Positions 2,123 through 32,859 of a stretch of 35,239 bases of DNA are shown here, one piece after another. The stretch is from Gammaproteobacteria bacterium (lineage in GTDB: Bacteria; Pseudomonadota; Gammaproteobacteria; Ga0077536), in contig JAIEQK010000029.1 of assembly GCA_019747795.1 (NCBI GenBank), positions 1 to 35,239 on the forward strand. Reading direction: 5' to 3'. How positions within the stretch are numbered: the first letter of the stretch is position 1; each line of letters starts with the position of its first letter. The notes below the pieces were generated by a model. It was given only the letters and a program-made list of their open reading frames with translations, searched no databases and was not told the DNA's origin. A program made the translations under genes and the position numbers.

Positions 2123-3466
2123 ATGGATCTGCGCGTCCGCCTGACACTGGCGCTGGCGCTGGTCTTCAGCCTGACGCTCGCGGCCGGCTGCGCCTGGCTC
2201 CTGGCCGATACGCGCCGCGCGGTGCGCGACGAACTGGTCGCCTCCACCGAACTCGCCACCACGCTGCTCGGCGGGATGATCGCGCTGGACGACGACCCGC
2301 TGGACGCCGATCGGGTATCCGCCCTGGCGGCGCGCCTCTCGCGCGATCCCGCCATTCGCCACCTGCGTTTCGAGGTGCAGCCGACGAGTGACGCGGCGCC
2401 CGGCCCGCAGCCGGCGCGTGCCGCGCGCCGCGCGGCGCCGGCCTGGTTCGCCGCGCTGGTGAGCCCCGATCCCGCCGAACTCGTCCACGAGGTCGGCCAT
2501 GCCGGCGGGCGCATCGTCGTACGCGCGGCGCCCGACGACGAAGTGGCCGAAGCCTGGCGCGAGACACGCACCTCGCTCACGGTCATCGCCTCGCTCTGCG
2601 TGGGCGCGCTGCTGCTGGTGTTCCTGTTCCTCGGTCGCGCGCTGCGACCGCTGCGCGAACTGTCCGCCGCGCTCGTTGGCATCGAGCAGGGCGAGTATCA
2701 CACCCGCGTGCCGCCGGTCGGCCTGTCCGACATCGATACCATCACCGCGCGCTACAACCACATGGCCGGCGCGCTGGCCGCGAGCCATGCCGACAACCTC
2801 GCGCTGACCGAGCGCTCACTCGAGATCCAGGAGCAGGAACGACGTCACCTGGCGCGCGAGCTGCACGACGAGATGGGCCAGTCGATCACCGCCATCAAGG
2901 CGCTGGCGGTGTCGATCCGCGAGCGCGCCGCGACCCATGAGCCGACGCTCGCCGAGCGCGCGGCGACCATCACCGACGTCTCCAGCGACATCTACGCCCG
3001 GGTGCGGCGCATGATCGCCAGCCTGCACCCGGTGGTGCTGGACGAGCTCGGCCTGGTGGCCGCACTCGAACAGATGGTCGATGACTGGAATTCCTACCAC
3101 GGCGACTGCTTCTGCCGCCTGGAGACCGAGCGGGACCTGCCGCCCCTGAACGCCGCGGCACGCATCGGGCTGTATCGCATCGCCCAGGAGGCGCTGACCA
3201 ACATCGCGCGCCATGCCGCCGCCGGCGAAGCGCGTCTCACCCTCGCGCGCGCGCCACGCGGTGGCGTGCGGCTCGAGGTGAGCGACGACGGGCAGGGCTT
3301 CGAGCCCGCCACCCGGCGCCGCGGCCTTGGCCTGACCGGCATCGCCGAGCGCGTCGCGACCCTGGGTGGCAGTCTCGAACTCGACGCGGCGCCCGGTGCG
3401 GGCGTGCGCCTGTGCGTCACCCTGCCGGCGCCGCCGGTCATGCAGGGAGCGATGGAGCTTGCGTAG
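2123..3466 (+). CDS. Sensor histidine kinase, NarX/UhpB type (HisKA_3)
   Basis: A 447-residue membrane-bound sensor kinase. Membrane segments at about 5-27 and 152-171 enclose a periplasmic sensor region of about 120 residues, followed by a HAMP-like linker. The dimerisation domain (HisKA_3) carries the phosphoacceptor His248 in LARELHDEMGQ. The ATPase domain shows the N box (EALTNIARHA, Asn360), the G1 box (DDGQGF, 388-393) and the G2 box (GLGLTGI, 401-407). This family pairs with LuxR/NarL-type response regulators, and one follows at once: its likely TTG start lies inside the last 8 bases of this gene, implying translational coupling. The sensed signal is unknown. The PQQ-related genes nearby suggest control of alcohol or C1 oxidation, as inference only. 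Confidence 0.93.
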   Translation: MDLRVRLTLALALVFSLTLAAGCAWLLADTRRAVRDELVASTELATTLLGGMIALDDDPLDADRVSALAARLSRDPAIRHLRFEVQPTSDAAPGPQPARAARRAAPAWFAALVSPDPAELVHEVGHAGGRIVVRAAPDDEVAEAWRETRTSLTVIASLCVGALLLVFLFLGRALRPLRELSAALVGIEQGEYHTRVPPVGLSDIDTITARYNHMAGALAASHADNLALTERSLEIQEQERRHLARELHDEMGQSITAIKALAVSIRERAATHEPTLAERAATITDVSSDIYARVRRMIASLHPVVLDELGLVAALEQMVDDWNSYHGDCFCRLETERDLPPLNAAARIGLYRIAQEALTNIARHAAAGEARLTLARAPRGGVRLEVSDDGQGFEPATRRRGLGLTGIAERVATLGGSLELDAAPGAGVRLCVTLPAPPVMQGAMELA

Positions 3467-4100
3467 TCCGCTCCGCATCCTCCTGGTCGACGATCACGCG
3501 GTGGTGCGCGCGGGCTTCAAGACCCTGCTCGAGAACCACGGCGACCTCGCGGTGGTGGCCGAGGCCGACAGCGGCGAGACCGCCTGTCGCGCCTTCGTCG
3601 ATCACGCGCCGGACCTGGTCATCATGGATCTCAGCATGCCGGGCGCCGGCGGCCTGGAGGCCATCCGGCGCATCGTCTCGCGGGCGAGCGACGCGCGCGT
3701 GCTGGTGTTCTCCATGCACGAGGACACCCTGTTCGTCGAACAGGCGCTGCAGGCCGGCGCGCGCGGCTACATCGGCAAGAGCAGCGCGCCCACCGTGCTG
3801 GTCGAGGCCGTGCGCCAGATTGCCAACGGCAACCTGTACATCGATCCGGACATCGCGCAGCGCCTCGCCTTCCAGAAGACCAAGGGCAACGACTCGCCGT
3901 TTCGCGCGCTGTCGACCCGCGAGTTCGAGATCGCCCGCCTGCTGGCCGAGGGGCTGTCGGTCAACGCCATCGCCAACCGGCTCGCGCTGTCCTACAAGAC
4001 CGTCGCCAACTACGCCACCCAGATCAAGGCCAAGCTCGACGTCGACACCGGCGCCGAACTGACGCGGCTCGCCATACGTCACGGTATCGTGAAAGCCTGA
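3459..4100 (+). CDS. LuxR/NarL-type response regulator (first of two paralogues)
   Basis: A receiver domain (residues 5-122) with acidic pair Asp11-Asp12, phosphoacceptor Asp57 (VIMDLSMP) and the conserved Lys of YIGKSS is followed by a C-terminal LuxR-type HTH (LSTREFEIARLLAEGLSVNAIA). The only start that avoids a roughly 100-base overlap with the kinase is a TTG at 3459, with GGGAG 9 bases before it; this yields 213 residues. The preceding gene is its probable cognate kinase. The protein closely resembles the second regulator at 6684-7367, especially in the linker and HTH (YKTVxNYxTQxKxKL, then TRLAIRHGIV). Related regulators control quinoprotein dehydrogenase genes in methylotrophs and pseudomonads (MxaB, AgmR/ErbR types). 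That role is inferred here. Confidence 0.92.
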   Translation: MRSPLRILLVDDHAVVRAGFKTLLENHGDLAVVAEADSGETACRAFVDHAPDLVIMDLSMPGAGGLEAIRRIVSRASDARVLVFSMHEDTLFVEQALQAGARGYIGKSSAPTVLVEAVRQIANGNLYIDPDIAQRLAFQKTKGNDSPFRALSTREFEIARLLAEGLSVNAIANRLALSYKTVANYATQIKAKLDVDTGAELTRLAIRHGIVKA

Positions 4101-4119: not shown

Positions 4120-4203
4120 GATATCGCGGGTTGGATTCCCAAAGGTCGCACCGCCATGGCGCTCTACAATCGCGCGCTGTCGTAAGCCGCGCGAGTGTCG
4201 TCG

Positions 4204-6687
4204 ATGTCTTTGAGCCGGAATGTTTCGCTGTGGGCCGTCGGTCTGGCGTTGCCCGTATGCCTGTCGCCTGGGGACGCGCGCGCGGAGGGCGCCGGTTTCG
4301 ACGACGAGATCGTGGTCGTCGCGGCCGCGCCCGGCGCGGGACGACGACTGGAGGCGGACCTTCTGCCCTACGCGGTCCAGAGCGCCGACGCGGACGAACT
4401 CGAACGCAAGCAGAGCACCGATCTCACCGACTATCTCGCGACCCATCTCGGCAGCGTCAGCATCAACTCGGCGCAGAACAACCCGCTGCAGCCGGACGTG
4501 CAGTACCGCGGCTACACCGCCTCGCCGCTGCTGGGCCTCGCCCAGGGCATTGCCGTCTACCAGAACGGGGTGCGCATCAACGAACCGCTCGGTGACGCGG
4601 TCAACTGGGACCTGGTGCCCGAGTCCGCCGTGCACAGCATCCAGATGATCGGCGGCAGCAATCCGCTCTATGGTCTGAACGCGCTCGGCGGCGCGCTCAG
4701 CGTGGAGATGAAGAACGGCTTCAACTACCACGGGCACGCCCTCGAGGCCTCGGGCGGCGCCTTCGGGCGGCGCGAGACGAGCGGCGAGAGCGGCGGCAAC
4801 AATGGCACGCTCGGCTACTACATCAACGTCGACTACTTCGGCGAGGACGGCTGGCGCGACCTGTCCGACTCCGAGGCGGTGAACGTCTACGGCTCGACCA
4901 GCTGGCGCGGTGCGGGCTCCAAGCTCGATCTCGGTTTCCAGTACGGCAGCACCGACCTGACCGGTAATGGCGCCGCGCCGGTCGGCCTGCTGGCCATCGA
5001 TCGGGAGGCCGTCTTCACCGCGCCGGACATCACGGAGAACGAACTGTTCGGCTTCACCCTGAACGGCGAACACCAGGTGAACGACGAGGTCGCGCTGAAC
5101 GCCACGGGTTTCTACCGCGACGTCGACACGCGCTCGTTCAACGGCGACGCGGCGGAACTCCTGGCCTGCGAGCTCGGCAACGGCGATTTCCTGCTCGAAG
5201 GCCTGGAGGAGGACGAGCTCGAGGAACTCGGCCTCGATGACGACGACATCTGCGAGGGCAACGGCCTTGGCGTGGCCGATCCCGATGCCTTGGAGACGCG
5301 GCTGAACTCGTTGCTCGATCCGGGCGAGGAACCCTTCGACCTCGACGACCTCACGCCCTCGCTCACTGGTACCGGCGTGCTCGCGGACGGCGCGATCAAC
5401 AACCGCAGCCGACGCCAGCAGGAAATGTACGGCCTGGATCTGCAGGGCAGCTGGAAGCATGACCTGTTCGGACGCGGCAACTACCTGGTCATCGGCGGCG
5501 GTCACAATCATGGCGAGGCGCGCTTCGTGTCCTCCACCGAACTGGCCAATCTAGACCCCGTGACGCGCAGCACCGAAGGACTGGGCACCGGCACTTTCAT
5601 CGGGCGCCAGGCCACCCAGGTCGACACCACCACGTCCACCTGGAGCGTCTACTTCTTCGACGTGTTCAAGCTCACCGAGCGCATCGCGGTGACCGCCGGC
5701 GGCCGCTACAACCGCACCCGGGTGAAGGTGCATGACCTCTCGGCCGAGCGGCCGGAGCTGAACGGCAGCCACAGCTTCGAGCGCTTCAACCCGACCGCCG
5801 GCGCGACCTTCCAGTTCGCCGCCGACCAGACGCTGTACGCCAACTACAGCGAGGCGTCGCGCGCGCCGACGCCCATCGAGCTGTCCTGCAACGACGACAC
5901 CTTCGAGCGCGCGCGCGCGGCGGCCATCCGGCGCGGCGAGGATCCGGACGACGTGGACTTCGAATGCCGCCTGCCCAATGCCTTCCTCGCCGATCCGCCG
6001 CTCGACCAGGTGGTGGCCAAGAGCTGGGAGGCCGGCGTGCGCGGCAAGCTCGGCGTGCTGCGGCATCGGCTCGGCTACTTCCGCACCGTGAACCACGACG
6101 ACATCATCTTCCAGACCACGGGGCGCGGCACGGGCCTGTTCGCCAATGTCGACCAGACGCGACGCGAAGGCTTCGAATCGGCCTTCGGTCTGAGCTTCGG
6201 CAGTCTCGACTACGCCATCGCCTACAGTTACGTGCGCGCGAGCTTCGAGGACGACTTCCAGGCCCAGAGCCCCAATCACCCGCGGGCCGACGCCGACGGC
6301 AACATCCAGGTGGAGAAGGGGGATCGCATGCCGGGCATTCCCGCCCACCAGCTGCGTTTCAGCTCCGACTGGCATGCGCCCTACAGGCTGCTGTTCGGCC
6401 TGGACCTCGTGTACAACTCGGGTCAGTACCTGCGCGGCGACGAGTCCAACGACCTTGCCCAGCTCGACGACTACGCGGTGGTCAACCTGCGCGCGACGTG
6501 GGCCGCAACAGAGAAGATCCAGGTCTTCACCCGTGTCACCAACCTGTTCGACACCGACTACGAGAACTTCGGCCTGCTCGGCGAGGAGCCGGGCGAGGTG
6601 CTGCCCAATCTCGCCGACCAGCGACCGATATTCGTCGGCGCCGGCGCGCCGCGCGCCGCCTGGGTGGGGGTGAGAGTACGCCTGTGA
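4204..6687 (+). CDS. TonB-dependent outer-membrane receptor
   Basis: This 827-residue protein has a signal peptide (residues 1-27, cut near DARA-EG), a TonB-box-like segment (DEIVVVAA), a plug domain (about 45-160, including YRGYTASPLLGLAQGIAVYQNGVRINE) and a long beta-barrel. The last strand ends in an aromatic/aliphatic pattern closing with RVRL. It imports a scarce ligand across the outer membrane using TonB energy. Two Cys pairs stand out: Cys322/Cys350 bracket a loop in which 13 of 27 residues are Asp or Glu, and Cys562/Cys588 bracket another Asp-rich loop. The ligand is unknown. Given the PQQ context, lanthanide, calcium or PQQ are candidates. An in-frame GTG at 4195 is an alternative start. 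It overlaps the following regulator by 4 bases. Confidence 0.93.
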   Translation: MSLSRNVSLWAVGLALPVCLSPGDARAEGAGFDDEIVVVAAAPGAGRRLEADLLPYAVQSADADELERKQSTDLTDYLATHLGSVSINSAQNNPLQPDVQYRGYTASPLLGLAQGIAVYQNGVRINEPLGDAVNWDLVPESAVHSIQMIGGSNPLYGLNALGGALSVEMKNGFNYHGHALEASGGAFGRRETSGESGGNNGTLGYYINVDYFGEDGWRDLSDSEAVNVYGSTSWRGAGSKLDLGFQYGSTDLTGNGAAPVGLLAIDREAVFTAPDITENELFGFTLNGEHQVNDEVALNATGFYRDVDTRSFNGDAAELLACELGNGDFLLEGLEEDELEELGLDDDDICEGNGLGVADPDALETRLNSLLDPGEEPFDLDDLTPSLTGTGVLADGAINNRSRRQQEMYGLDLQGSWKHDLFGRGNYLVIGGGHNHGEARFVSSTELANLDPVTRSTEGLGTGTFIGRQATQVDTTTSTWSVYFFDVFKLTERIAVTAGGRYNRTRVKVHDLSAERPELNGSHSFERFNPTAGATFQFAADQTLYANYSEASRAPTPIELSCNDDTFERARAAAIRRGEDPDDVDFECRLPNAFLADPPLDQVVAKSWEAGVRGKLGVLRHRLGYFRTVNHDDIIFQTTGRGTGLFANVDQTRREGFESAFGLSFGSLDYAIAYSYVRASFEDDFQAQSPNHPRADADGNIQVEKGDRMPGIPAHQLRFSSDWHAPYRLLFGLDLVYNSGQYLRGDESNDLAQLDDYAVVNLRATWAATEKIQVFTRVTNLFDTDYENFGLLGEEPGEVLPNLADQRPIFVGAGAPRAAWVGVRVRL

Positions 6688-7367
6688 GCGCGGCCCCGCG
6701 CGTCGCCACGGGTGCGGATCGTGTCCGCGTGCTGCTGGTCGACGACCACGCCGTGGTGCGAGTCGGCTTTCGTTCACTGCTCGCGCAGCAGTCGTGGTGT
6801 GGCGACATCGATGAAGCGGCAAACGGGGAACTCGGCTACCAGCGGTTCCGCGACATGGCGCCCGACGTGGTGGTGATGGACCTCACCATGCCACGCATGT
6901 CGGGGCTGACCGCCATCCAGCGCATCATGGCGGTCGCGCCCGGCGCGCGCATCCTCGCGGTCAGCGTGCACGACGAGACAGTATTCGTGATGCAGGCGCT
7001 GAAGGCCGGCGCCGCGGGCTACGTGTCGAAGGGCTCGGCGCCGGAAGAGCTCGTGGACGCCGTGCGCGCGGTCAGCCGTGGGCAGAGCTACATCTCGGCC
7101 GGCATTGCCCAGCGCATCGCCATCACCAGTCTGCGCGGCGCCGAAGACCCGTTCGCGCAGCTGTCGCCGCGCGAGTTCGAGATAGTGACCCTCGCCGCGC
7201 GCGGCGCCGACCCGCGCGACATCGCGCAGAGGCTCTCGATCAATTACAAGACGGTGGTGAACTACCTGACCCAGGCGAAGCGCAAGCTGATGGTCGCGAA
7301 CGCGACCGAGATGACGCGGCTCGCCATCCGCCATGGCATCGTCGAGGTAGGCCCGGTCGAGGACTGA
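6684..7367 (+). CDS. LuxR/NarL-type response regulator (second paralogue)
   Basis: A 227-residue regulator whose GTG start overlaps the TonB receptor stop and has GGGGGTGAGAG just upstream. The receiver carries Asp20-Asp21, phosphoacceptor Asp66 (VVMDLTMP) and Lys in YVSKGS. The C-terminal HTH reads LSPREFEIVTLAARGADPRDIAQRL. Sequence and layout mirror the regulator at 3459-4100, so the pair looks like a duplication that now flanks the receptor gene. No second kinase lies next to it. It could share the upstream kinase, receive from a distant one, or form heterodimers. Together the four genes (kinase, regulator, receptor, regulator) resemble one regulatory and uptake unit. Confidence 0.92.
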   Translation: MSAAPRVATGADRVRVLLVDDHAVVRVGFRSLLAQQSWCGDIDEAANGELGYQRFRDMAPDVVVMDLTMPRMSGLTAIQRIMAVAPGARILAVSVHDETVFVMQALKAGAAGYVSKGSAPEELVDAVRAVSRGQSYISAGIAQRIAITSLRGAEDPFAQLSPREFEIVTLAARGADPRDIAQRLSINYKTVVNYLTQAKRKLMVANATEMTRLAIRHGIVEVGPVED

Positions 7368-7408: not shown

Positions 7409-7945
7409 TCAGGGCGGCGCGCTGTTCGGACCGATCTGCCAGGCCTCGATCTGCATCTCTTCGATCTGACCGCTGACCGCGCTCACCTCGATCTTGAAGC
7501 GCACGCTGTCGACGTCGACCAAGTCCACCTCGTAGCGTGGCTGTCCGTGGGCGTCGAGTTCGTACTGGATCTCCTCCACCTCGCCGGGATAGACGGCGGT
7601 CGCGGCCGCCACCGCGCGCTGCCGATCGACTTTCGCGCCACGCTTGAACAAGGGATCGTCGGCGCTGGCCACCTGCTGCTGCATCTCCAGGATGGCGCCG
7701 TGCTCGACGCCGCACTCGAACTCCCAGGTCCTGCCGGTGGGTGGCTTGATCTCGATCTCGTAGGCCGCCTGGTGTTCATCGCTGACGGCAAGGTACTCGA
7801 CTTTCATGACCTGTCCGGCGCGCAGCGCGCGGGCGGCCTTCAGGCAGTCGGTGATGGTGGCGTCGGCACGCGAGGGCGCTGACAGCGTCAGTAACGCGCA
7901 GGCGAGCGCTGCATCGAAGAGGCGGGACGGCGGTCGAACATCCAT
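7409..7945 (-). CDS. Exported protein with PepSY-like repeats
   Basis: A 178-residue protein with a signal peptide (residues 1-27, ending SRADA). Two PepSY-like units follow. The first (about 30-95) holds a conserved pattern of helix, then AYEIEIKPPTGRTWEFECGVEHGAI; the second (about 105-170) reads RAVAAATAVYPGEVEEIQYELD followed by RYEVDLV. PepSY domains are small periplasmic modules, some of which inhibit proteases. One Cys pair (Cys34, Cys78) could form a disulfide. It sits 114 bases downstream of the beta-propeller gene on the same strand, so it may be the last gene of that operon. The start ATG at 7945 is the natural one for the signal peptide. No substrate or partner can be named. Confidence 0.75.
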   Translation of the reverse strand: MDVRPPSRLFDAALACALLTLSAPSRADATITDCLKAARALRAGQVMKVEYLAVSDEHQAAYEIEIKPPTGRTWEFECGVEHGAILEMQQQVASADDPLFKRGAKVDRQRAVAAATAVYPGEVEEIQYELDAHGQPRYEVDLVDVDSVRFKIEVSAVSGQIEEMQIEAWQIGPNSAPP

Positions 7946-8059: not shown

Positions 8060-9013
8060 TCAGTCGTCGATCACCACGCCCCAGGGCGCCTCGCCCGTGG
8101 CGACCTTGGCGGTGACGCTGTGCTTCTCGGTGTCGATCACGGAAACCTGGTTGTCGGCGCCATCGGTGCTGTAGAGCCGCTTGCCGTCGCGGGACAGCGC
8201 GAGGCCCCACACCCGCTTGCCGACGCCGATCTGGGCGACCACTTCGAGCGTGTTGGCGTCCAGCACGAACACGGTGTTGGCGCGGCCGCCGGCGACGTAG
8301 AGCTGCTTGCCGTCGCGGCTCACCAGCACGTCCTTGGGCTTGGCCTTGTCGTCGGCCAGGCTCATGCGGCCGAGGATGGTGCCGCTCTCCACGTCGACCT
8401 TCTTCACCTCGCCGCCGATCTCGGACGTGGCGTAGGCGAGCTTGCTGTCGGCGCTGAACGTCGCTGCGCGCGGCCGCGCGCCGACCAGGATGTTGTTCAC
8501 CACCTGGTTCTCGGGGATGGCGATGATGTGCAGCATGTTGGTCGATTCACTGGTGACGATGGCGCGCTTGCCGTCCGGCGAAATCGCCACGCCCTCGGGT
8601 TCGATGCCGACCTCGATTTCCGCCACCAGCTTGCCGGTCTTCGGATCGTAGACCGAGGCCTTGGCGTCGTTCTCGTTCGAAATGTAGAGATGGCCGTCCT
8701 TGTGCACGGCGAAGGTCTCGGGATCGTCGCCGCTCGGGAAGCTGCGCGTGACCTCGAGGGTCTTGGGGTCGAGGACCGCGATCTTGTTCTCGCCGGACAC
8801 CGCCACGTAGATCTCGCTGCCGTCCGGCGCGAGACCGATGCCGCGCGGGCGCGCGCCGATGGCGATGGTCTTCTCCACCTTGTTGGTCTTGCCGTCGATG
8901 ACGGTGACGCTGTCGCCCTTCTCATTGGTGACGAAAACGCGGCCGGTGGCGGCGCCTGCATCGAGCGCGAGCGCGGCAAGCAGGGCGGTGAGTGCGAGCT
9001 TGGATGAAGTCAT
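8060..9013 (-). CDS. PQQ-dependent catabolism-associated YVTN beta-propeller protein
   Basis: A 317-residue exported protein. After a signal peptide (about 1-21, DAGAA) it consists of repeated beta-propeller blades, each with variants of VFVTNEKGDSVTVIDGKT, IYVAVSGENKIAVLD, LYISNENDAKASVYD, LYVAGGRANTVFVLD and LYSTDGADNQVSVID. This corresponds to the family defined as the PQQ-dependent catabolism-associated beta-propeller (TIGR03866), found next to quinoprotein alcohol dehydrogenase clusters. The molecular role of that family is not settled; a periplasmic binding or scaffold role is plausible. It lies 35 bases downstream of the substrate-binding protein of a companion family, forming an operon. 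The ATG at 9013 begins the signal peptide; longer extensions run through the neighbouring gene and are rejected. Confidence 0.88.
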   Translation of the reverse strand: MTSSKLALTALLAALALDAGAATGRVFVTNEKGDSVTVIDGKTNKVEKTIAIGARPRGIGLAPDGSEIYVAVSGENKIAVLDPKTLEVTRSFPSGDDPETFAVHKDGHLYISNENDAKASVYDPKTGKLVAEIEVGIEPEGVAISPDGKRAIVTSESTNMLHIIAIPENQVVNNILVGARPRAATFSADSKLAYATSEIGGEVKKVDVESGTILGRMSLADDKAKPKDVLVSRDGKQLYVAGGRANTVFVLDANTLEVVAQIGVGKRVWGLALSRDGKRLYSTDGADNQVSVIDTEKHSVTAKVATGEAPWGVVIDD

Positions 9014-9048: not shown

Positions 9049-9873
9049 TCAGGGCGCGCAGTCGCCGGTGCCTAATGAATCGAGGTCGGTCGCGACGCCG
9101 CGCACCGGCGCCTCGCCGACGATGTCGTCCTGCTCGACCAGGAGCAGCGGCTGGCTGAGCTGCCCGTTGGGCCTGAAGCTCATCTCCACGCCCTTCTGCC
9201 CGTCGAAAGCCAGGTCCTCGCGCAGCGCCGTGAGCAGCGCAGCCGGGTCGGCGCTCTTGAGGCGCGCGGCGGTGTCGGTGACGAGCTTGGCGGCCGCCCA
9301 GCCGGCCCAGGCCTGGTCGCTCATGGGCCTGCCGGTCTTGTCGGTGTAGCGCTTGTTCAACTGCGCGCCCGCGTACATCTCGGCGCGCCAGTGCCAGGCG
9401 TGAGCGCTGGCCTGGCTCTGCGGCGACTTCTGCCGCCACTGGCTGAGCGCGTCGGCGCGCATCGCGGCGCTCGGCAGGGTATGCAACAGGTTGGGCGCGC
9501 ACCGCGCGCGGAGCGGGTCGTCCTCGGCACCGGTGTTGATGACCGCGACGCCGGCCGCCTGCTTCGCGCTCGGCATGACGTCCGCGGCGGGCAGGTCGAT
9601 CAGCACTGCCACCGGCGCGCTGGCCAGGGCCGTGGCGACATCGCGGCTGTCCGTGAGTTCGAAGACGAGACCCAGGAACTTGCCCTGCGCATTGCCTTCG
9701 GCGATGCCCTGGCGGGCGCCCGCCAGGCTATCGCTCTCGGCCGGGCCGACGTAGGCCACTCTGACCGTCAGTGGCGTCGCCGCGTCGACACCGCCGACCA
9801 TCCACAGGAGTACGGCGAGCAGGGCGAGCGCGTGGTAGGAGCGAGAGGCAGTGCACTTAGTATGGGAATGCAT
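9049..9873 (-). CDS. ABC-type substrate-binding protein of the PQQ-dependent alcohol dehydrogenase system
   Basis: This 274-residue protein has an N-terminal signal peptide (about 1-32, ending GGVDA) and a periplasmic binding fold that starts with VRVAYVGPAESDSLAGARQGIAEGN. Its family (substrate-binding protein, PQQ-dependent alcohol dehydrogenase system, TIGR03863) is named for neighbourhood with quinoprotein dehydrogenases. Features such as AGVAVINTGAEDD followed by CAPNLLHTLPS fit type I (Leu/Ile/Val-like) binding proteins. At 274 residues it is short for that fold, usually about 350-400, so one lobe may be reduced. No permease or ATPase genes for it are nearby. It heads a - strand operon with the beta-propeller gene and diverges from the aldehyde oxidoreductase operon. 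Confidence 0.82.
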   Translation of the reverse strand: MHSHTKCTASRSYHALALLAVLLWMVGGVDAATPLTVRVAYVGPAESDSLAGARQGIAEGNAQGKFLGLVFELTDSRDVATALASAPVAVLIDLPAADVMPSAKQAAGVAVINTGAEDDPLRARCAPNLLHTLPSAAMRADALSQWRQKSPQSQASAHAWHWRAEMYAGAQLNKRYTDKTGRPMSDQAWAGWAAAKLVTDTAARLKSADPAALLTALREDLAFDGQKGVEMSFRPNGQLSQPLLLVEQDDIVGEAPVRGVATDLDSLGTGDCAP

Positions 9874-9949
9874 ATTGACGTCCGGTGGGGTCTGGTGATC
9901 GACACTGAATCCCGTTAGTCTGCCCACACCTTCGAGGCAGTGAGCGCCG

Positions 9950-9969
9950 CGCATTCTAAGTGGAATGCG
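9950..9969. promoter_or_regulatory. Putative operator in the region divergent between the PQQ-associated operon and the AOR operon
   Basis: CGCATTC (9950-9956) and GAATGCG (9963-9969) form a perfect 7-bp inverted repeat with a 6-base centre. The 9-mer GGAATGCGA at 9962-9970 recurs at 10064-10072, 37 bases before the aorA start. The 235-base region 9874-10108 contains no gene. The repeats could bind a regulator controlling one or both divergent operons; no clear -35/-10 pair was found there. Confidence 0.4.
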
Positions 9970-10108
9970 AGCGCGCGGGGCGCATGCTTCTGGCAGTTCT
10001 CGAGGGGAAAAGTTTTGTATGACGGTGACGGGTCGGCGCGTGGCGTCGCCGAGCGCCGTCCGGGGAATGCGAACCGGCCCGTCCTGGGCCCCATCGAGGA
10101 GATGCCCG

Positions 10109-10576
10109 ATGTTGAAGGCGCTGCAACTCGAACCCGAGAAATGCACCGGCTGCCTGCAGTGCGAGATGGCCTGTTCGTTCGAGAACGAAGGAGTGTTCAA
10201 TCCTTCGAAGTCGCGCATCAAGGTCTTCACCTTCCATGACGAGGGGCGTTTCGCGCCCTACACCTGCTCGCAGTGCGCCGAGGCCTGGTGCCTGCACGCC
10301 TGCCCGGTGGAAGCCATCGTCATCAACCCCGCCACCGGCGCCAAGGACGTGCACGCCGATGTCTGCGTGGGTTGCAAGGTGTGCACCATCGCCTGCCCGT
10401 TCGGCACGGTGAACTACAACGCCGACAGCGGCAAGGTGATCAAGTGCGACCTGTGCGGCGGTTCGCCGGCCTGCGCGACCGCCTGCCCGACCGGCGCCAT
10501 CACCTACGTGGACGCCGAACACACCGGATACGAACGCATGCGCGCCCACGCCGCGCAGAGCCTGCCCCACAGCTGA
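10109..10576 (+). CDS. aorA: Polyferredoxin electron-transfer subunit of aldehyde oxidoreductase (AorA-like)
   Basis: A 155-residue protein with sixteen cysteines arranged for four [4Fe-4S] clusters: Cys12/15/18/22, Cys53/56/61/65, Cys86/89/92/96 and Cys113/116/122/126. This layout is typical of DmsB/HycB-type electron-transfer subunits. Next to a tungsten aldehyde oxidoreductase it matches AorA of the Aromatoleum-type AorABC enzyme, which carries electrons between the tungsten subunit and the flavin subunit. It has no signal peptide, so the complex is cytoplasmic. The ATG at 10109 is preceded by GAGGAG at suitable distance. An upstream in-frame ATG at 9965 would add an unlikely basic, low-complexity stretch across the operator region. 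The aorB gene follows after 20 bases. Confidence 0.92.
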   Translation: MLKALQLEPEKCTGCLQCEMACSFENEGVFNPSKSRIKVFTFHDEGRFAPYTCSQCAEAWCLHACPVEAIVINPATGAKDVHADVCVGCKVCTIACPFGTVNYNADSGKVIKCDLCGGSPACATACPTGAITYVDAEHTGYERMRAHAAQSLPHS

Positions 10577-10596
10577 TTTCGCGGGAGACGTCGACC

Positions 10597-12447
10597 ATGG
10601 CCTGGCAACGCAAGATTCTGCGGGTGAACCTCACCGCGGGCACCTGCACCCCCGAACCCCTCAACATGGACTGGGCGCTGAAGTACATCGGTCAGCGCGG
10701 CCTGGCGAGCAAGTACCTGGCGGCGGAAGTCGATCCCAAGGTCGATGCGCTGTCGCCGGACAACAAGCTGATCATGGCCACCGGTCCCCTGACCGGCACC
10801 ATGGCCGCGACCGGCGGCCGCTACTCGGTGATCACCAAGAGCCCGCTGACCGGCGCCATCGCCTGCTCCAACTCCGGTGGCTTCATCGGCGCGGAGATGA
10901 AGGCCGCGGGCTGGGACATGATCATCTTCGAGGGCAAGTCCCCGAAGCCGGTCTATCTCTACCTCGAGAATGACGAGGCGCAGCTGCTGCCGGCCGATGG
11001 CCTGTGGGGCAAGTCCGTGTGGGAGACCGACGAGATCCTGCACGCCACCCACCAGGACCCGCTGCTGCGCATCGCCTGTGTCGGCCGCTCGGCCGAGACC
11101 GGCTGCCTGTACGCCGGCGTGGTGAACGATCTGCATCGCGCGGCGGGCCGCTCGGGCGTCGGCACGGTGATGGCGTCCAAGCATCTGAAGGCGGTCGCCA
11201 TCCGCGGCACGCTCGGCGTCGGCAACGTGCGCGACAAGCGCGCGTTCATGGACGCCACCACCGCCGGCAAGAAGACGCTCAAGGACAACGCGGTCACCGG
11301 CGTCGGCCTGCCGACCATGGGCACCCAGGTGCTGATGAACGTGATCAACGAGGTCGGCGCGATGCCGACCCGCAACATGCGCGAAGTGCAGTTCGAGGGC
11401 GCGTCCAAGATCTCCGCCGAGGCGATGCTGGAACCGCGCGAGAGCGACGGCAAGCCGAACCTGGTGACCAACGGCGCATGCTTCGGCTGCACCATCGCCT
11501 GCGGCCGCATCTCGACCATCGACCCGCAGCACTACACCATCGCCAACAAGAACAAGTACAAGGGCGCGTCCGGCGGCCTGGAGTACGAGGCCGCGTGGGC
11601 GCTCGGCTGCGACACCGGCGTCGACGACCTGGACGCGCTGACCTACGCCAACTTCCTGTGCAACGAGGACGGCTTCGATCCGATCTCCTTCGGCTCGACC
11701 GTCGCCGCGGCGATGGAACTGTTCGACATCGGCGCCATCACCACCGAGCACACCGGCGGCGTGGAGCTGCGCTTCGGCTCCGCCGAGGCGCTGACATGGG
11801 CGGCCGAGGTGGTCGCCACCGGCACGGGATTCGGCAAGGACCTCGGGCTTGGCTCCAAGCGCCTGTGCGCCAAGTACGGCCACCCGGACCTCTCCATGAC
11901 GGTGAAGGGCCAGGAGTTCCCGGCCTACGATCCGCGCGGTATCCAGGGCATGGGCCTCACCTATGCGACCTCGAACCGCGGCGCATGCCACCTGCGCAGC
12001 TACACCGTGTCGTCCGAGATCATGGGCGTGCCGGTCAAGACCGATCCGCTCACCACCGAGGGCAAGCCGGAGCTGGTGAAGGCCTTCCAGGACGCGACCG
12101 CGGCGGTGGATTCCACCGGTCTGTGCGTCTTTACCACCTTCGCCTGGACGCTGGCCGACATCGCGCCGCAGGTGGACGCCGCCTGCGAGGGCGGCTGGAC
12201 ACCCGAGACCATGCTGGAGGTGGGCGAGCGCATCTGGAACCTGGAGCGCCAGTTCAACCTGGACGCAGGCCTTACCGCGGCCGACGACACCCTGCCCAAG
12301 CGGCTCCTGAAGGACGCGGCCAAGACCGGTCCGGCCAAGGGACAGGTGAATCGCCTGCACGAGATGCTGCCGCAGTACTACGCGATTCGCGGCTGGACAG
12401 AAGACGGCCGCCCGACCGACGAGACGCTGTCGCGGCTCGGCGTCTGA
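10597..12447 (+). CDS. aorB: Tungsten-containing aldehyde:ferredoxin oxidoreductase, catalytic subunit (AorB-like)
   Basis: A 616-residue member of the AOR family, which oxidises aldehydes to carboxylic acids at a tungsten bis-pyranopterin site. The proximal [4Fe-4S] ligands are Cys295, Cys298, Cys302 and Cys510, in CFGCTIAC and DSTGLC, matching the Cys288/291/295/494 pattern known from Pyrococcus AOR. Glu329 and His465 (TSNRGACH) align in position with the proposed active-site Glu313 and His448 of that enzyme. Pterin-contact motifs include YDPRG (444-448) and DxxGLC (505-510). The N-terminal domain reads TGPLTGTMAATGGRYSV. GGGAGA precedes the ATG. The AorA-AorB-AorC order indicates the NAD-linked Aromatoleum-type enzyme. 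Substrate range (aliphatic or aromatic aldehydes) cannot be read from sequence. Confidence 0.95.
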   Translation: MAWQRKILRVNLTAGTCTPEPLNMDWALKYIGQRGLASKYLAAEVDPKVDALSPDNKLIMATGPLTGTMAATGGRYSVITKSPLTGAIACSNSGGFIGAEMKAAGWDMIIFEGKSPKPVYLYLENDEAQLLPADGLWGKSVWETDEILHATHQDPLLRIACVGRSAETGCLYAGVVNDLHRAAGRSGVGTVMASKHLKAVAIRGTLGVGNVRDKRAFMDATTAGKKTLKDNAVTGVGLPTMGTQVLMNVINEVGAMPTRNMREVQFEGASKISAEAMLEPRESDGKPNLVTNGACFGCTIACGRISTIDPQHYTIANKNKYKGASGGLEYEAAWALGCDTGVDDLDALTYANFLCNEDGFDPISFGSTVAAAMELFDIGAITTEHTGGVELRFGSAEALTWAAEVVATGTGFGKDLGLGSKRLCAKYGHPDLSMTVKGQEFPAYDPRGIQGMGLTYATSNRGACHLRSYTVSSEIMGVPVKTDPLTTEGKPELVKAFQDATAAVDSTGLCVFTTFAWTLADIAPQVDAACEGGWTPETMLEVGERIWNLERQFNLDAGLTAADDTLPKRLLKDAAKTGPAKGQVNRLHEMLPQYYAIRGWTEDGRPTDETLSRLGV

Positions 12448-12471
12448 GCGCGCGCAGGGGAGTCGAACAAC

Positions 12472-13740
12472 ATGCATCACGTCGTGGTAGGCGCGGGACC
12501 GGCGGGGGTGATCGCCGCCGAGGCGCTGCGCAAGCTGGCGCCCAAGGCGCAGGTCACCCTGGTCGGCGACGAGCCGGAGCCGCCGTACTCGCGCATGGCC
12601 ATTCCCTATTTCCTGATCAAGCAGATCGAGGAAGCGGGCACGCATCTGCGCAAGACCGCGGACCATTTCGCCAAGCGCGGTATCGATCTGCGCCAGGCGC
12701 GGGTCACGGCGCTGACGCCTGCCAGCCGCACGCTGACGCTCGCCGACGGCGGCCAACTCGCCTATGACACGCTGCTGCTCGCGACCGGTTCGCGGCCCGT
12801 GCGTCCGCCCATTCCGGGCATGGACCTGCCCAAGGTCACGTCCTGCTGGACGCTCGCCGATGCGCGACGCATCGCCGCCACCGCCAAGCCCGGCGCGCGC
12901 GTGGTGCTGATGGGCGCGGGCTTCATCGGCTGCATCATCCTCGAGGCGCTGGCGCGCAGCGGCGCCAAGCTGACGGTGGTCGAGATGGAGCACCGCATGG
13001 TGCCGCGCATGATGAACGACACCGCCGGCAACATGATCAAGGACTGGTGCACCAGCCACGGTGTGGCGGTGCATACCGGCACCAAGGTCGACGCCATCGA
13101 GACCAAGGGCGACGCCCTGCGCGTGGTGTTGAACAACGGCAGCGCGGTGGACGCCGACCTGGTGGTGTCCGCCACAGGCGTACGGCCCAACATCGAACTG
13201 CTCGAAGGCACCGGCATCGCCACGCGCCAGGGCGTGCTGGTCGACCGTCACCTGCGCACCAGCGACCCGGCGGTGTTCGCCGCGGGTGATGTCGCCGAGG
13301 GCATCGATTTCTCCACCGGCGAGTACTCGGTGCAGGCCATCCAGCCGACCGCCGCCGAGCACGGCCAACTGGCAGCGCGCAACATGGTGGGACTGCGCGG
13401 CGCGGTGCATCGCGGCAGCGTCAACATGAACGTGCTCGACACCCTGGGGCTCATATCCAGCTCCTTCGGGCTGTGGATGGGCAAGGCGGGCGGCGACGCG
13501 GCAGAGCTCCTGAACCGCGAGCGCTACCGCTATCTCAACCTGCAGTTCGAGGACGACGTGCTGGTCGGCGCGACCAGTCTCGGCCTCACCCAGCACGTCG
13601 GCGTGCTGCGTGGCCTCATCCAGAGCAAGACGCGGCTCGGCGGGTGGAAGCGCAAGCTGATGCACGACCCGACGCGCGTGATGGAAGCCTACCTGGCGAA
13701 CACCCAGGCGCTCGGCTTCAACGCCACGGTGCTGAAGTAA
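12472..13740 (+). CDS. aorC: FAD/NAD(P)-dependent oxidoreductase subunit of aldehyde oxidoreductase (AorC-like)
   Basis: A 422-residue pyridine nucleotide-disulfide oxidoreductase-like flavoprotein. The FAD motif GAGPAG sits at 7-12, the NAD(P)-binding motif GAGFIG at 148-153, an ATGVRPN motif near 236 and the second FAD contact FAAGDVAE around Asp273. No redox-active CxxC is seen, in line with an electron-transfer role rather than disulfide reduction. In the Aromatoleum enzyme this subunit links the iron-sulfur chain to NAD+. Here the gene follows aorB by 24 bases and has GGGGAG before its ATG. A ferredoxin reductase role is an alternative, but operon order favours AorC. The C-terminal domain (about 310-422) includes NVLDTLGLISSSFG. 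Confidence 0.9.
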   Translation: MHHVVVGAGPAGVIAAEALRKLAPKAQVTLVGDEPEPPYSRMAIPYFLIKQIEEAGTHLRKTADHFAKRGIDLRQARVTALTPASRTLTLADGGQLAYDTLLLATGSRPVRPPIPGMDLPKVTSCWTLADARRIAATAKPGARVVLMGAGFIGCIILEALARSGAKLTVVEMEHRMVPRMMNDTAGNMIKDWCTSHGVAVHTGTKVDAIETKGDALRVVLNNGSAVDADLVVSATGVRPNIELLEGTGIATRQGVLVDRHLRTSDPAVFAAGDVAEGIDFSTGEYSVQAIQPTAAEHGQLAARNMVGLRGAVHRGSVNMNVLDTLGLISSSFGLWMGKAGGDAAELLNRERYRYLNLQFEDDVLVGATSLGLTQHVGVLRGLIQSKTRLGGWKRKLMHDPTRVMEAYLANTQALGFNATVLK

Positions 13741-21003: not shown

Positions 21004-22131
21004 TCAGCCGAGCGCGCGGGAGTTGCGGGTGTTGCGAAAGACCAGCGGCTTGGTGGTCCCGGCCGCGGCGGCGCGTTCGATCCGCTCCACTTCCTCGACC
21101 AGCGCCGCGTGGCGTGGCGAACGATCGCATACCGGATCGGTCGCGCTCGCGTCGCCGGTCAACAGGTAGGCCTGGCAGCGGCAGCCGCCGAAATCCTTGG
21201 TCTTGTCCGGACAGCTGCGGCAGGGCTCCTGCATCCACTCGAAGCCGCGAAAGCGCGCGAAGGCCGGCGATTCGTTCCAGATGTAGTCGATGCTTTGATC
21301 GCGCACGTTGGGAAACTCGAGTCCCGGCAGGTGCTGCGCGGCGTGACAGGGCAGGGCGCTGCCGTCCGGCGCGACGGTCAGGAAGATCGACCCCCAGCCG
21401 TTCATGCAGGCCTTGGGCCGATTCTCGAAGTAGTCGGGCACGACGTAGATGATCTTCATCCGGTCGCCCATCTCGGCCTGGTAGCGTTTCGCGACCGCTT
21501 CGGCGTGACGCAGCTGTTCGCGGGTCGGCAGCAGGCCTTCGAGATTCAGGCGCGACCAGCCGTAGTACTGGGTGCTGGCGAGCTCGACGAAGTCCGCCTC
21601 GAGCTCGATGGTCATGCGGATGATGTCTTCGATCTGGTCGATGTTCTGGCGGTGGATCACCACGTTCAGGACCATCGGGTAATCGTGCGCCTTCACCGCG
21701 CGCGCCATGGCGCGCTTGTGCGCGAAGCTCGCCGTGCCGCCGAGGTAGTTGTTCAGCTCCTCGTTGCTGGCCTGGAAGCTGATCTGGATGTGATCGAGCC
21801 CGGCTTCGCGCAGGCGCGCGACCCGCGCCTCGTCCATGCCGACGCCCGACGTGATGAGATTGGTGTAGTAGCCGAGCGCGCGTGCCTCGGCGGTCAGGAT
21901 CTCCAGGTCGTCACGCAGCAGCGGCTCGCCGCCGGAGAAGCCGAGCTGCATCGCGCCGAGCGCGCGCGCCTCGCGCAGCACGCGCAGCCAGTCCTCGGTG
22001 TCGAGTTCCTGTTTGCGCTGCGCGAAATCCAGCGGATTCGAGCAGTAGGGACACTGCAGCGGGCAGCGGTAGGTGAGCTCGGCCAGCAGCCACAGCGGCT
22101 TGCCGGCGATGTCAGTAGGTGATCCAGCCAT
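21004..22131 (-). CDS. pqqE: PQQ biosynthesis radical SAM protein PqqE
   Basis: A 375-residue radical SAM/SPASM enzyme that forms the Glu-Tyr carbon-carbon crosslink in the PqqA peptide, the first step of pyrroloquinoline quinone synthesis. The SAM cluster motif is CPLQCPYC (CxxxCxxC) near residue 19, followed by [13 protein letters not shown]-terminal auxiliary cluster cysteines include ACMNGWG, LPCHAAQ, and the group [16 protein letters not shown] with DPVCDRSP. The start ATG at 22131 lies 20 bases inside pqqD, suggesting translational coupling, in keeping with the known PqqD-PqqE interaction. It is the last gene of the pqqA-C-D-E cluster. Confidence 0.97.
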
Positions 22132-22387
22132 TGCCTTCGGCCTGTTCGAGGAAGCGGCGCACGTCGTCGTCCAGCGGCGCGCCGCCGAACAGGGCTTTCA
22201 GTTCGGCGATGATGGCCTCCACGCTGCGCTGGCCGTCGACGCGCTTCAGGATCTCACCCGCGCTCGCGGAGAGCTTGACCATGCCCTCCGGGTAGAGCAG
22301 CACGTGACAGTCCTGGGCCGCTTCCCATTGAAAGCGGTACATGCGTTTCAGCACCGGCACACGGGCGTCCTGCGGGGCGGCGTTCAT
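22112..22387 (-). CDS. pqqD: PQQ biosynthesis peptide chaperone PqqD
   Basis: A 91-residue RiPP recognition element that binds PqqA and presents it to PqqE. Typical features are [35 protein letters not shown], followed by [18 protein letters not shown] and a C-terminal winged-helix region with [15 protein letters not shown]. The ATG at 22387 overlaps the end of pqqC by 4 bases, and the 3' end overlaps pqqE by 20 bases. A longer upstream in-frame extension lies within pqqC and is rejected. Confidence 0.95.
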
Positions 22388-23151
22388 GCGTCGCACCCAT
22401 GAAAGGGCGGCATGTCGGCGACGTAGGCGAGCCACATCGCGTCCAGCATGGTCCACAGCACGTTCAGCTTGAACTGCAGGATGGCGAGCGCGTATTCCTG
22501 CTGTGCACGGGTCTCGAAATGCGCGAGCGTGACGGCGAGGCCGTGTTCGACGTCGCGTCGCGCCTCGGCCAGGCGCTTGCGGAAATATTCGTAGCCCTTG
22601 GCGTCGATCCAGGGGTAGGCGGCGGGCCAGTTGTCGAGCCGGCGCTGGTGGATCTCCGGCGCGAACATCTCGGTCAGGGACGAGCAGGCCGCTTCTTCGA
22701 ACGTCGCGCCGCGCGCGAAATTCACATAGGCATCGACCGCGAAGCGCACGCCGGGCAGCACGTGGCGCTCGTCCTCCAGCTCAGCGCGGGTCAGGCCGAC
22801 GGCCTCGCCGAGACGCAGCCAGGCTTCGATGCCGCCTTCCTCGCCGGCCAGGCCGTCATGATCGATGATGCGCTGCACCCACAGGCGGCGCGCTTCGCGA
22901 TCACGGCAGTTGGCCATCACCGCCGCGTCCTTCACCGGGATGCTGGTCTGGTAGTAGTAACGGTTGGCCACCCAGCCCTGCACCGCGCCCCGCGGCAGTT
23001 CGCCGGCATTCATGCGCCGGTGAAACGGGTGATTGATGTGGTAGTAACGCTGCTTGGCGCGCAGCTGCGCTTCGAACTCGGCGCGCGACCAGGCGAGGGC
23101 GCTGCTCGGGATGGGCGGCTTGACGGCGAACTGGACCACGATGTGCGGCAC
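22384..23151 (-). CDS. pqqC: Pyrroloquinoline-quinone synthase PqqC
   Basis: A 255-residue all-helical oxidase that performs the last ring closure and eight-electron oxidation of the PQQ precursor without a metal or flavin. Signature segments are [55 protein letters not shown] and the C-terminal [19 protein letters not shown]. The length is normal. It lies 72 bases downstream of pqqA, separated by a stable hairpin, and overlaps pqqD by 4 bases. The ATG at 23151 gives a slightly extended N-terminus (PHIVVQFAV), which may be dispensable. Confidence 0.96.
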
Positions 23152-25692: not shown

Positions 25693-26172
25693 TCAGTCCT
25701 CGCGCCGCCAGTCGCCGGAGCGTCCGCCCGACTTGGCGTCGAGTCCCAGGTCGGTGATCCGCATGCCGCGATCCACCGCCTTGCACATGTCGTAGATGGT
25801 GAGGAGCGCGACCTGCGCGGCGCACAGCGCCTCGATCTCGACGCCCGTGGGCCCGAAGGTCTCGGCGCTGGCGCGACAGCACACCGCCGGCGCGTCGGCG
25901 TCGAGGGTGAGCTCGATGTCCACGCGGGTGAGCGCGATGGGGTGGCACAGCGGTATCAGCTCGCTGGTCTTCTTCGCCGCCATGATGCCGGCCACCCGCG
26001 CCACCGCCAGCACGTCGCCTTTCTTGTGCGTGCCGGCGGCGATCTGCTCGAGGGTCGCGGCCTGCATCAGGATGCGACCGCTCGCCACGGCGCGGCGATG
26101 GGTGGCGGCCTTGCCGGCGACGTCGACCATGCGCGCATGGCCCTGGTGATCGAGGTGGGTGAGGTCGGCCAT
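25693..26172 (-). CDS. moaC: Cyclic pyranopterin monophosphate synthase MoaC
   Basis: A 159-residue enzyme that converts the MoaA product 3',8-cyclo-dihydro-GTP into cyclic pyranopterin monophosphate in molybdenum/tungsten cofactor synthesis. Key motifs are [18 protein letters not shown] near the start, [17 protein letters not shown] with its catalytic Lys and His, [24 protein letters not shown], and a C-terminal KSGGRSG motif. The ATG at 26172 (ADLTHLD) gives the family's usual length; an upstream in-frame ATG at 26235 would place the start inside the region divergent from moaD. It is transcribed away from moaD-moaE-pqqB. Confidence 0.96.
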
Positions 26173-26247
26173 GGCCAGGGCTCCGATGCTGCGTGCGACA
26201 GGGTGTAGAATTCGAAGGCAACAGAACAGCTTCAACGCGAGGTCGAA

Positions 26248-26481
26248 GTGACGGTCAAGGTGCGCTTTTTCGCCAGTCTAGCGGAGACCATGGGGCGTCG
26301 CGAGATGGAACTGCCGCTCGAACCCGGTACCACCGTGAGCAGCATCTGGGCGGCGCTCACCGCCGACAAGCCGATGCCCCAGGGCGCGCTCTGCGCGGTC
26401 AACCACGATTACTGCACGTTGGAACAGCCGCTCGCCGACGGCGACGAAGTGGCGTTCTTCCCACCCGTCACGGGGGGCTGA
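26248..26481 (+). CDS. moaD: Molybdopterin synthase sulfur carrier subunit MoaD
   Basis: A 77-residue ubiquitin-like protein ([22 protein letters not shown] start, FFPPVTGG end). The C-terminal Gly-Gly carries the thiocarboxylate that MoaE uses to form the dithiolene of molybdopterin. GTG start at 26248. It directly precedes moaE (1 base apart), so this is the general housekeeping MoaD, distinct from the copy in the aldehyde oxidoreductase operon at 13804. A TAGAAT hexamer at 26206-26211 may be its -10 element, although no good -35 is seen. Confidence 0.94.
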
Positions 26482-26482
26482 A

Positions 26483-26947
26483 GTGGCGGTCCGCATCTGC
26501 GCCGAGCCCTTCGACCCGCTGGAAGAACTGCGGCGTCACCAGGCGGGCTTCGGCGCGGGGCGCGCCAAGGTCGGCGCGCTGGCGAGCTTCGTCGGCTCGA
26601 TGCGCGACTTCAACGAGGGCGATGCGGTCAGCTCGATGGTGCTCGAGCACTATCCCGGCATGACCGACCGACAGTTGGAGGAACTCGCGGCGCGCGCCGC
26701 GGCGCGCTGGCAGCTCGCGGACATTCTCATCGTGCATCGCGTGGGGGAGATCCTGCCCGGCGACGACATCGTGCTGGTTGCCACCTGGTCCGCGCATCGC
26801 GCCCATGCGTTCGAATCCTGCCGCGCGGTGATGGAAGAGCTCAAGCACTCGGCGCCGTTCTGGAAAAAGGAGCGCACCGCCGCGGGCGAGCGCTGGGTGA
26901 CGCGCAACACCCCGGCCAACAGCGCGGACTTCGAGACGCGAGGCTGA
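26483..26947 (+). CDS. moaE: Molybdopterin synthase catalytic subunit MoaE
   Basis: A 154-residue catalytic subunit that, with MoaD, inserts two sulfurs into cyclic pyranopterin monophosphate. Typical segments are GALASFVGSMRDFNEGDAV, LEHYPGMTDRQLEEL, ILIVHRVGEILPGDDIVLVATWSAHRAHAFESC and LKHSAPFWKKE with catalytic lysines. GTG start, 1 base after the moaD stop. The pqqB gene starts 10 bases after its stop and is probably on the same transcript. Confidence 0.96.
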   Translation: MAVRICAEPFDPLEELRRHQAGFGAGRAKVGALASFVGSMRDFNEGDAVSSMVLEHYPGMTDRQLEELAARAAARWQLADILIVHRVGEILPGDDIVLVATWSAHRAHAFESCRAVMEELKHSAPFWKKERTAAGERWVTRNTPANSADFETRG

Positions 26948-26957
26948 GGCGGTAAGC

Positions 26958-29139: not shown

Positions 29140-29148
29140 GGTTGCAAT

Positions 29149-31746: not shown

Positions 31747-31767
31747 GCTCGTCGTCCCACCTGTCGC

Positions 31768-32778: not shown

Positions 32779-32809
32779 GATCCGCAGGAAAACAGGTGGG
32801 CCTGAGCCG

Positions 32810-32815
32810 ATTCTA
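32810..32815 (-). promoter_or_regulatory. Putative -10 element of the moaA operon
   Basis: TAGAAT on the - strand, 31 bases before the moaA ATG. No consensus -35 is present at 16-18 bases; that position is instead occupied by the inverted repeat at 32834-32859, suggesting activator dependence or repression. Confidence 0.4.
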
Positions 32816-32833
32816 GCACGCGAGATTCGCGGG

Positions 32834-32859
32834 GATTCCCGCAATTTCCGCCGGGAATC
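32834..32859. promoter_or_regulatory. Perfect inverted repeat (GATTCCCG-N10-CGGGAATC) upstream of moaA, putative operator
   Basis: Two perfect 8-bp half-sites at 32834-32841 and 32852-32859 are separated by 10 bases, so their centres are 18 bases apart, near two helical turns. The element covers the expected -35 region of the moaA promoter and reaches the stop codon of the CYTH gene. It does not resemble the ModE consensus. It may bind a metal- or pathway-responsive regulator. Confidence 0.5.

Follow-up and report, generated by a model that had tools for sequence, protein, structure and literature searches.

A LutH-like TonB-dependent receptor with two acidic, Cys-bracketed loops as a candidate lanthanide importer in a gammaproteobacterium

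To characterize a TonB-dependent receptor gene in a Gammaproteobacteria bacterium (GTDB lineage Ga0077536; assembly GCA_019747795.1), we analyzed the 35,239-nucleotide contig JAIEQK010000029.1, referred to here as the window. Sequence comparisons indicate that the receptor is probably a lanthanide importer of the LutH-like, XoxF-associated TonB-dependent family. In the proposed mechanism, lanthanide, as ion or chelate, would cross the outer membrane through the receptor and be taken over in the periplasm by the LanPepSY-type and LutA/PedA1-type products of nearby genes, to supply lanthanide-dependent pyrroloquinoline quinone (PQQ) alcohol dehydrogenases. Expression would probably be adjusted by the kinase and regulators encoded on either side of the receptor, and loops L4 and L7, both extracellular and each with an acidic insert, may cover the ligand pocket as an electrostatic lid. 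The family, loop topology, Cys-pair conservation and gene neighborhood were computed, and the ligand, the disulfides and the lid role are what we infer.

A genome scan for relatives of the receptor gave 592 confirmed stretches, of which the best 80 served as family loci. Four of these were partial and were not extracted (L074, L107, L109, and L118); among the 76 extracted, 72 entered the structure alignment and 52 the tree. The tree was a quick maximum-likelihood tree of 65 rows with Shimodaira-Hasegawa-like approximate likelihood ratio (SH-aLRT) support, in which four Escherichia coli receptors (PqqU, BtuB, CirA, and FepA) were set as the outgroup. A branch with support 99 separated the 61 family rows from these four receptors, and a 47-row grouping, also with support 99, held both the window receptor and the LutH-type receptor L154. 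A first-pass annotation, made from the sequence alone, had proposed comparing the receptor with known lanthanide and PQQ receptors; in this comparison it clustered with L154 and away from PqqU, BtuB, CirA, and FepA.

The L154 receptor (9623-12160) belongs to a genome of the group of M. nodulans relatives and lies inside a lut-type cluster with TIGR03863- and TIGR03866-type genes, two open reading frames (ORFs) that by eye encode an ATPase and a permease, an exported protein, the receptor and lanmodulin. We take lanmodulin to stand directly beside lutH in the lut cluster. The gene order at L154 is the lutH arrangement given in PMC7391723, which also describes lutH as repressed by La3+. Through L154, the window receptor resembles LutH of Methylorubrum extorquens in that both fall in one receptor family in the tree, carry L4 and L7 Cys pairs at matching places and have TIGR03863- and TIGR03866-type neighbors. 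The two receptors share 31% identity, and the L4 and L7 stretches of L154 are short and neutral to basic. L154 adjoins lanmodulin and its cluster has apparent ATP-binding cassette (ABC) ATPase and permease genes, whereas the window receptor has a nearby PepSY gene instead. The gammaproteobacterial lanthanide-related receptor LanA of Methylotuvimicrobium buryatense (PMC12482762) was likened to the window receptor by description only, both being gammaproteobacterial, and Methylococcaceae relatives with about 40% identity may be LanA or LutH-like.

Many of the best 80 loci came from methylotrophs (Methylophaga, Methylobacter, Methylovulum, Methylophilus, Methylotenera, and Methylopumilus), and relatives found in the plasmid search included Sphingobium, Burkholderia, Methylobacterium, and a methanotroph. 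In phage records only two distant receptor matches were found, both labeled Acinetobacter phage. L051 and L107 lie on contigs labeled as Klebsiella pneumoniae and Bordetella parapertussis metagenome-assembled genomes, labels that in our judgment look wrong for the content. Much larger TonB-receptor frames, most of them about 980 to 1284 aa long, resemble the family in the N-terminal plug region, with 37 to 44% identity, and in a part of the barrel further on; they were located at G002:C29:41077, at G028:C60:222963 and in the genomes of L121 (G456) and L095 (G453), with several copies in the Methylophilus genome.

Neighboring genes within about 10 kb of the receptor were counted at the 80 family loci and at 20 control TonB-receptor loci. 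At least one gene for PepSY, lanmodulin, a PQQ dehydrogenase, pqq or TIGR03863/66 was found near 26 of the 80 family loci and near none of the 20 controls (Fisher p 0.0014); because the family loci are mutually related, these counts are not independent. By class, PepSY was found near 12 loci, lanmodulin near 1, PQQ dehydrogenase near 10, pqq near 3, and TIGR03863/66 near 4. Of the 10 PQQ dehydrogenases near family loci, eight carried the D-x-D lanthanide motif; L061 lacked it, and L071 gave no clear call. The surroundings of plasmid relatives were read in four regions. The Burkholderia receptor lies near a PQQ dehydrogenase and pqqABCDE, the Sphingobium receptor near a PQQ dehydrogenase, pedF and a PQQ-associated propeller, and the M. 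nodulans receptor two genes from a lanmodulin-like gene, with a response regulator directly after the receptor. For the Methylocalor plasmid relative, no lanthanide- or PQQ-type neighbor was named in the region read.

The genome of the window encodes 10 PQQ alcohol dehydrogenases above the family cut-off (L037 to L046); five carry D-x-D, and the other five have Asn/Thr at the second position. L037 is a XoxF with WDYD, so a lanthanide-type D-x-D dehydrogenase is present. Furthermore, 58 genomes, this one included, were scanned for the receptor (expectation (E) value 1e-20), a close, L037-like XoxF (E 1e-180) and PqqE (E 1e-80), which were found in 32, 16, and 30 genomes, respectively. All 16 XoxF-positive genomes encoded the receptor. 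Within the window's family of genomes, the receptor was present in 15/15 genomes with XoxF versus 14/21 without (p 0.027), and in 21/26 with PqqE versus 8/10 without (p 1.0). Three genomes of one genus of this family (G011, G017, and G022) carried XoxF and the receptor with no PqqE found; they are possible PQQ scavengers.

Residue numbers count from the ATG at 4204 (827-aa form) unless stated otherwise. The four Cys codons of the two stretches start at 5167 (Cys322), 5251 (Cys350), 5887 (Cys562), and 5965 (Cys588), and the fifth Cys of the receptor is near the N-terminus. Between Cys322 and Cys350, 13 of 27 residues are Asp or Glu (D/E), including a DDDD run, and none is Lys or Arg (K/R); the first-pass count was exact. 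Only 0.5% of 2000 shuffles of the receptor protein reached 13 acidic residues in any 27-residue span, and the maximum in 20 control TonB-dependent receptors, drawn from 8 genomes also holding a receptor-family member, was nine, so that none of them matched it. The stretch of 25 residues between Cys562 and Cys588 holds nine D/E, six of them Asp. It is thus Asp-rich, as had been noted, but four Arg make it less one-sided than implied.

To place the loops, an AlphaFold2 model of the receptor was built from 73 sequences (predicted local distance difference test 90.6; predicted template modeling score 0.89), and the strands were counted and numbered by hand. Together with the Pfam plug and barrel matches, the model describes a TonB plug and a 22-strand barrel. 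Strands 7 (296-316) and 8 (397-421) flank insert 1, and strands 13 (542-553) and 14 (603-616) flank insert 2. Each even-to-odd strand turn has at most four residues; therefore, both inserts are placed on the long, extracellular side, as loops L4 and L7, and the earlier proposal that both Cys loops face the outer surface agrees with the strand topology of this confident model. In ten-residue blocks, the model score was 91 to 97 over 321-390 and 52 to 86 over 561-600, and the lower-scoring region might reflect the behavior expected of a mobile lid.

The conservation of both Cys pairs was examined in 108 relatives, the window included. The loop-1 pair was present in 92 and absent in 16, and a single Cys was found in none; the loop-2 pair was present in 107. 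The sole row without the loop-2 pair, which is also the sole row with three loop-1 Cys, is L126, a mis-extracted frame. Since the loop-1 Cys are both kept or both lost, the pattern fits a disulfide, as had been suggested, and Cys322-Cys350 and Cys562-Cys588 are putative disulfides. Among the literature matches listed, judged by titles and abstract openings, no paper on such disulfide loops in a lanthanide receptor was found.

The Cys pairs mostly enclose short stretches in the relatives, with six residues in loop 2 in 64/108. A 25-residue loop-2 stretch was found in 42/108 rows, 41 of which also carry 26 to 31 residues in loop 1; the remaining row, L069, lacks the loop-1 Cys pair. L063, from Pseudomaricurvus alcaniphilus, is one of the relatives with both inserts. 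In the tree, the long-L7 rows form one starred clade of nine. Short Cys loops are therefore widespread and the long-L7 rows confined to one clade, and the Cys pairs are best read as old family features and the acidic inserts as a single-lineage gammaproteobacterial addition. At 95% identity the 42 rows reduce to 39 non-redundant members (window included; a few rows duplicate other loci), and insert means were taken over 38, as L069 has no insert 1. Mean D/E content was 36% in insert 1, 31% in insert 2, and 12% in the remaining protein. Seven hydrophobic positions of insert 1 are conserved in 35 to 38 of the 39 members, even where the acids are gone (L014 and L012). Insert 2 ends in G-E/D-D-P-D-D-V/I-x-F-E-C, and identity at D583, P584, D585, D586, and E590 (numbered from the GTG) was kept in 34, 35, 30, 34, and 38 of 39. 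Its D-P-D recalls how the lanmodulin-like loops of P0002 begin, as a likeness only.

Several observations weigh against the lanthanide importer. No LutE-type (TIGR03864) ABC ATPase scored above the cut-off in the whole genome (best 183 bits versus 302), and therefore any lut pathway would be incomplete there. The co-occurrence counts span related genomes and are not independent, and in 16 genomes the receptor occurs with no L037-like XoxF. A PepSY homolog was found in 4 of the 58 genomes (own included) versus the receptor in 32, and in G028 it is on a different contig from the receptor. PepSY adjacency alone (12/80 versus 0/20 controls, p 0.12) was not significant, and the tested lanthanide/PQQ neighbors were absent at 54/80 family loci, many of them on short contigs. 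The tree is a quick one, with an outgroup named beforehand and long outgroup branches, and the best solved match of the receptor is PqqU, as detailed below. The loops themselves also speak against it: the L4 Cys of L154 enclose no D/E and three K/R, and insert-1 acidity was not higher in XoxF-bearing genomes.

The first-pass annotation had suggested that such acidic loops could capture a hard cation such as calcium or a lanthanide. The last two results do not support acidity of the Cys loops as a mark of a lanthanide ligand. L154, L155, L156, and P0003, all Methylobacterium-type, have no D/E and two to three K/R between the L4 Cys, a charge opposite to that of the window clade, and loop acidity as a mark of all lanthanide receptors was rejected. 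Because the acidic loops are clade-specific and missing from the LutH-type receptor, they do not support a lanthanide ligand; the guess of lanthanide itself draws its support from the tree with the LutH-type receptor and from the lanthanide-type neighbor genes. That the acidic lids capture metal directly is nevertheless a testable hypothesis, to which we give a rather low probability. Its full form, in which the two disulfide-closed acidic lids on L4 and L7 together make up a surface site where bare Ln3+ is caught and then passed to the pocket, seems to us quite unlikely. If true, the electrostatic design would be opposite to that of Methylobacterium LutH, whose neutral-to-basic loops would suit an anionic lanthanide-chelate, and two lanthanide-receptor classes could be read from loop charge. 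Lanthanide receptors may take the free ion or a metal-chelator complex, and this clade, in which the two extracellular lids are acidic and conserved and LanPepSY- and LutA-type genes lie close by, offers a concrete, swappable element with which to address metal capture. The family also extends lanthanide-receptor candidates to uncultured gammaproteobacteria rich in PQQ dehydrogenases.

Another explanation is that the receptor takes up a metal-chelate, either a lanthanophore or a ferric siderophore, and that the acidic inserts are lids with a protective or structural role and no metal contact; with a lanthanophore as the ligand, this overlaps with the importer proposed here. Such lids would agree with the hydrophobic positions of insert 1 that persist where its acids are lost and with the non-acidic loops of the LutH-type receptors, and the receptor profile also matches siderophore receptors. 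However, no siderophore or chelator biosynthesis gene was recognized among the part of the window ORFs searched, and an acidic lid would suit an anionic chelate poorly. We regard uptake of a chelate under inert lids as possible, at a rather low probability.

The acidic Cys loops could also play no part with the ligand and be a lineage-specific peculiarity of acidic or marine-type surfaces. Four of the 38 insert-1 sequences are little acidic (L012, L014, L024, and L025), and the lack of higher acidity in XoxF-bearing genomes points in the same direction. In the 39 non-redundant members, however, the inserts are about three times as acidic as the remaining protein. Their acidity shows no significant correlation with that of the remainder (rho 0.27, p 0.10), whereas it is correlated between the two inserts (rho 0.46, p 0.003). 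The absence of a comparable run from the 20 control receptors, which come from genomes holding family members, likewise argues against a general surface property, and a quirk of this kind is unlikely.

PQQ had been named by the first-pass annotation as an alternative ligand, and the receptor could import it, alone or with metal, like E. coli PqqU; the lanthanide genes would then be near because PQQ enzymes are. A direct phmmer search of the receptor against the PDB gave no matches, whereas a profile search matched PqqU and siderophore, metallophore, colicin, vitamin B12, and heme receptors, none of them named a lanthanide receptor. PqqU was the best solved match by profile (7.3e-28) and by Foldseek (1.7e-47), and VIA-align placed BtuB above PqqU (Z 40.6 versus 37.0). 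PqqU/YncD (PDB 9c4o and 6v81) is thus the nearest solved relative and likewise a 22-strand barrel, but it shares 21% identity with the window receptor and has no Cys in the two corresponding stretches. Loops 7 and 8 of PqqU close over PQQ, according to PMC12124388. By strand count, the window L7 would correspond to this loop 7 in the model, and in the alignment N477 and Y481, which belong to the PQQ site of PqqU, fall at the start of L7. Of the three residues in the published PqqU signature, two, R365 and R304, depend on the alignment register. The larger alignment has Arg at R365 in 100/108 rows, and alignment A2 is off by one residue there. R304 aligns to Val in two alignments, with an Arg two residues earlier kept in 105/108 and the register uncertain. 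The three genomes with XoxF and receptor in which no PqqE was found, and the pqq genes near 3/80 family loci, would also fit PQQ import.

The published PqqU signature, as given in the same paper (PMC12124388), requires an aromatic residue at Y99. This position is Leu in the window receptor in both alignments, and no aromatic residue occurs there in the 106 of 108 rows that are readable, so the signature fails there. The receptor scored 81 bits against a cut-off of 1200 for the NCBIfam PqqU family NF041535, and in the LutH-type L154 the residue aligned to R365 is Leu. PqqC and PqqE are both encoded in the window's own genome; PqqE was found in 23 of the 32 receptor genomes, and receptor presence within the window's family was not tied to it. 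Import of PQQ is accordingly improbable, even with PqqU as the nearest solved relative.

The receptor, its two loops and the neighboring genes that would serve a lanthanide importer are listed in Table 1.

Table 1. Positions of the receptor, its acidic loops and neighboring genes in the window
Feature	Position	Strand	Details
TonB-dependent receptor, LutH-like (probable)	4195..6687	+	830 aa from GTG 4195; 827 aa from ATG 4204; Pfam Plug 8.4e-13, TonB_dep_Rec 2.1e-40
Predicted extracellular loop L4, Cys322-Cys350, acidic helical insert	5167..5253	+	13/27 residues D/E
Predicted extracellular loop L7, Cys562-Cys588, acidic insert	5887..5967	+	9/25 residues D/E; terminal GEDPDDVDFEC
Sensor histidine kinase, UhpB-like	2123..3466	+	homologs within ~10 kb of 24/80 family loci, 0/20 control loci
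LuxR-type response regulator	3366..4100 (ORF as listed)	+	receiver domain begins near 3477
Second LuxR-type response regulator	6684..7367	+	GTG 6684 overlaps receptor stop
Periplasmic PepSY protein, LanPepSY-like	7409..7945	-	178 aa; PF03413
PQQ-catabolism-associated beta-propeller, PedA2-like	8060..9013	-	ATG 9013; TIGR03866 333 bits, cut-off 287
ABC-type substrate-binding protein, LutA/PedA1-like	9049..10230	-	TIGR03863 153 bits, below cut-off 414
PqqE (context)	21004..22131	-	TIGR02109 551 bits
PqqC (context)	22384..23151	-	TIGR02111 351 bits

The genes are ordered kinase, regulator, receptor, and regulator, followed on the opposite strand by the PepSY, propeller, and substrate-binding genes. 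The PepSY gene, one gene away from the receptor, is the sole PF03413 match of the genome (E 0.001). Its product matched the 9vy3 series of the PDB, eight entries of one PepSY protein that is presumably LanPepSY, with an E value of 4.3e-28 over residues 29-173. Pfam scored one domain (105-163), and the model shows the helix-plus-four-strand unit twice. With its mass of about 19 kDa, doubled PepSY unit and exported-type N-terminus (a signal-like stretch, judged by eye to be a signal peptide), the protein appears similar to LanPepSY. In a Foldseek search with the model, the best matches were weak DUF2874 and YpmB-type folds, and 9vy3 was not among the matches listed; the plasmid search gave no match to the protein. 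D/E made up 15 to 24% of 12 PepSY homologs near family receptors and 29 of the 178 residues of the window protein.

The propeller and substrate-binding genes form a pair that matches the binding-protein and YVTN-propeller pair of PedA1A2BC, the La3+ importer of Pseudomonas putida (PMC6839425); by description and family, they would correspond to PedA2 and PedA1. Beside the window pair no ATPase or permease gene was seen, in contrast to PedA1A2BC. The same source reports that P. putida KT2440 lacks a homolog of the methylotroph receptors. The substrate-binding protein also gave a 63-bit match to a lut-cluster protein of L154. At L050 the order is kinase, regulator, receptor, propeller, and binding protein, and then a homolog (83%) of the aldehyde ferredoxin oxidoreductase (AFOR) of the window. 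In the window, 10273-13740 encodes this AFOR_N/AFOR_C protein and then a flavin adenine dinucleotide (FAD) oxidoreductase, and moaC, moeA, and moaA-type genes lie at 25693-33090. The locus is probably a tungsten/molybdenum aldehyde oxidoreductase beside lanthanide/PQQ genes, and the AFOR-type enzyme could oxidize aldehydes from the PQQ dehydrogenases.

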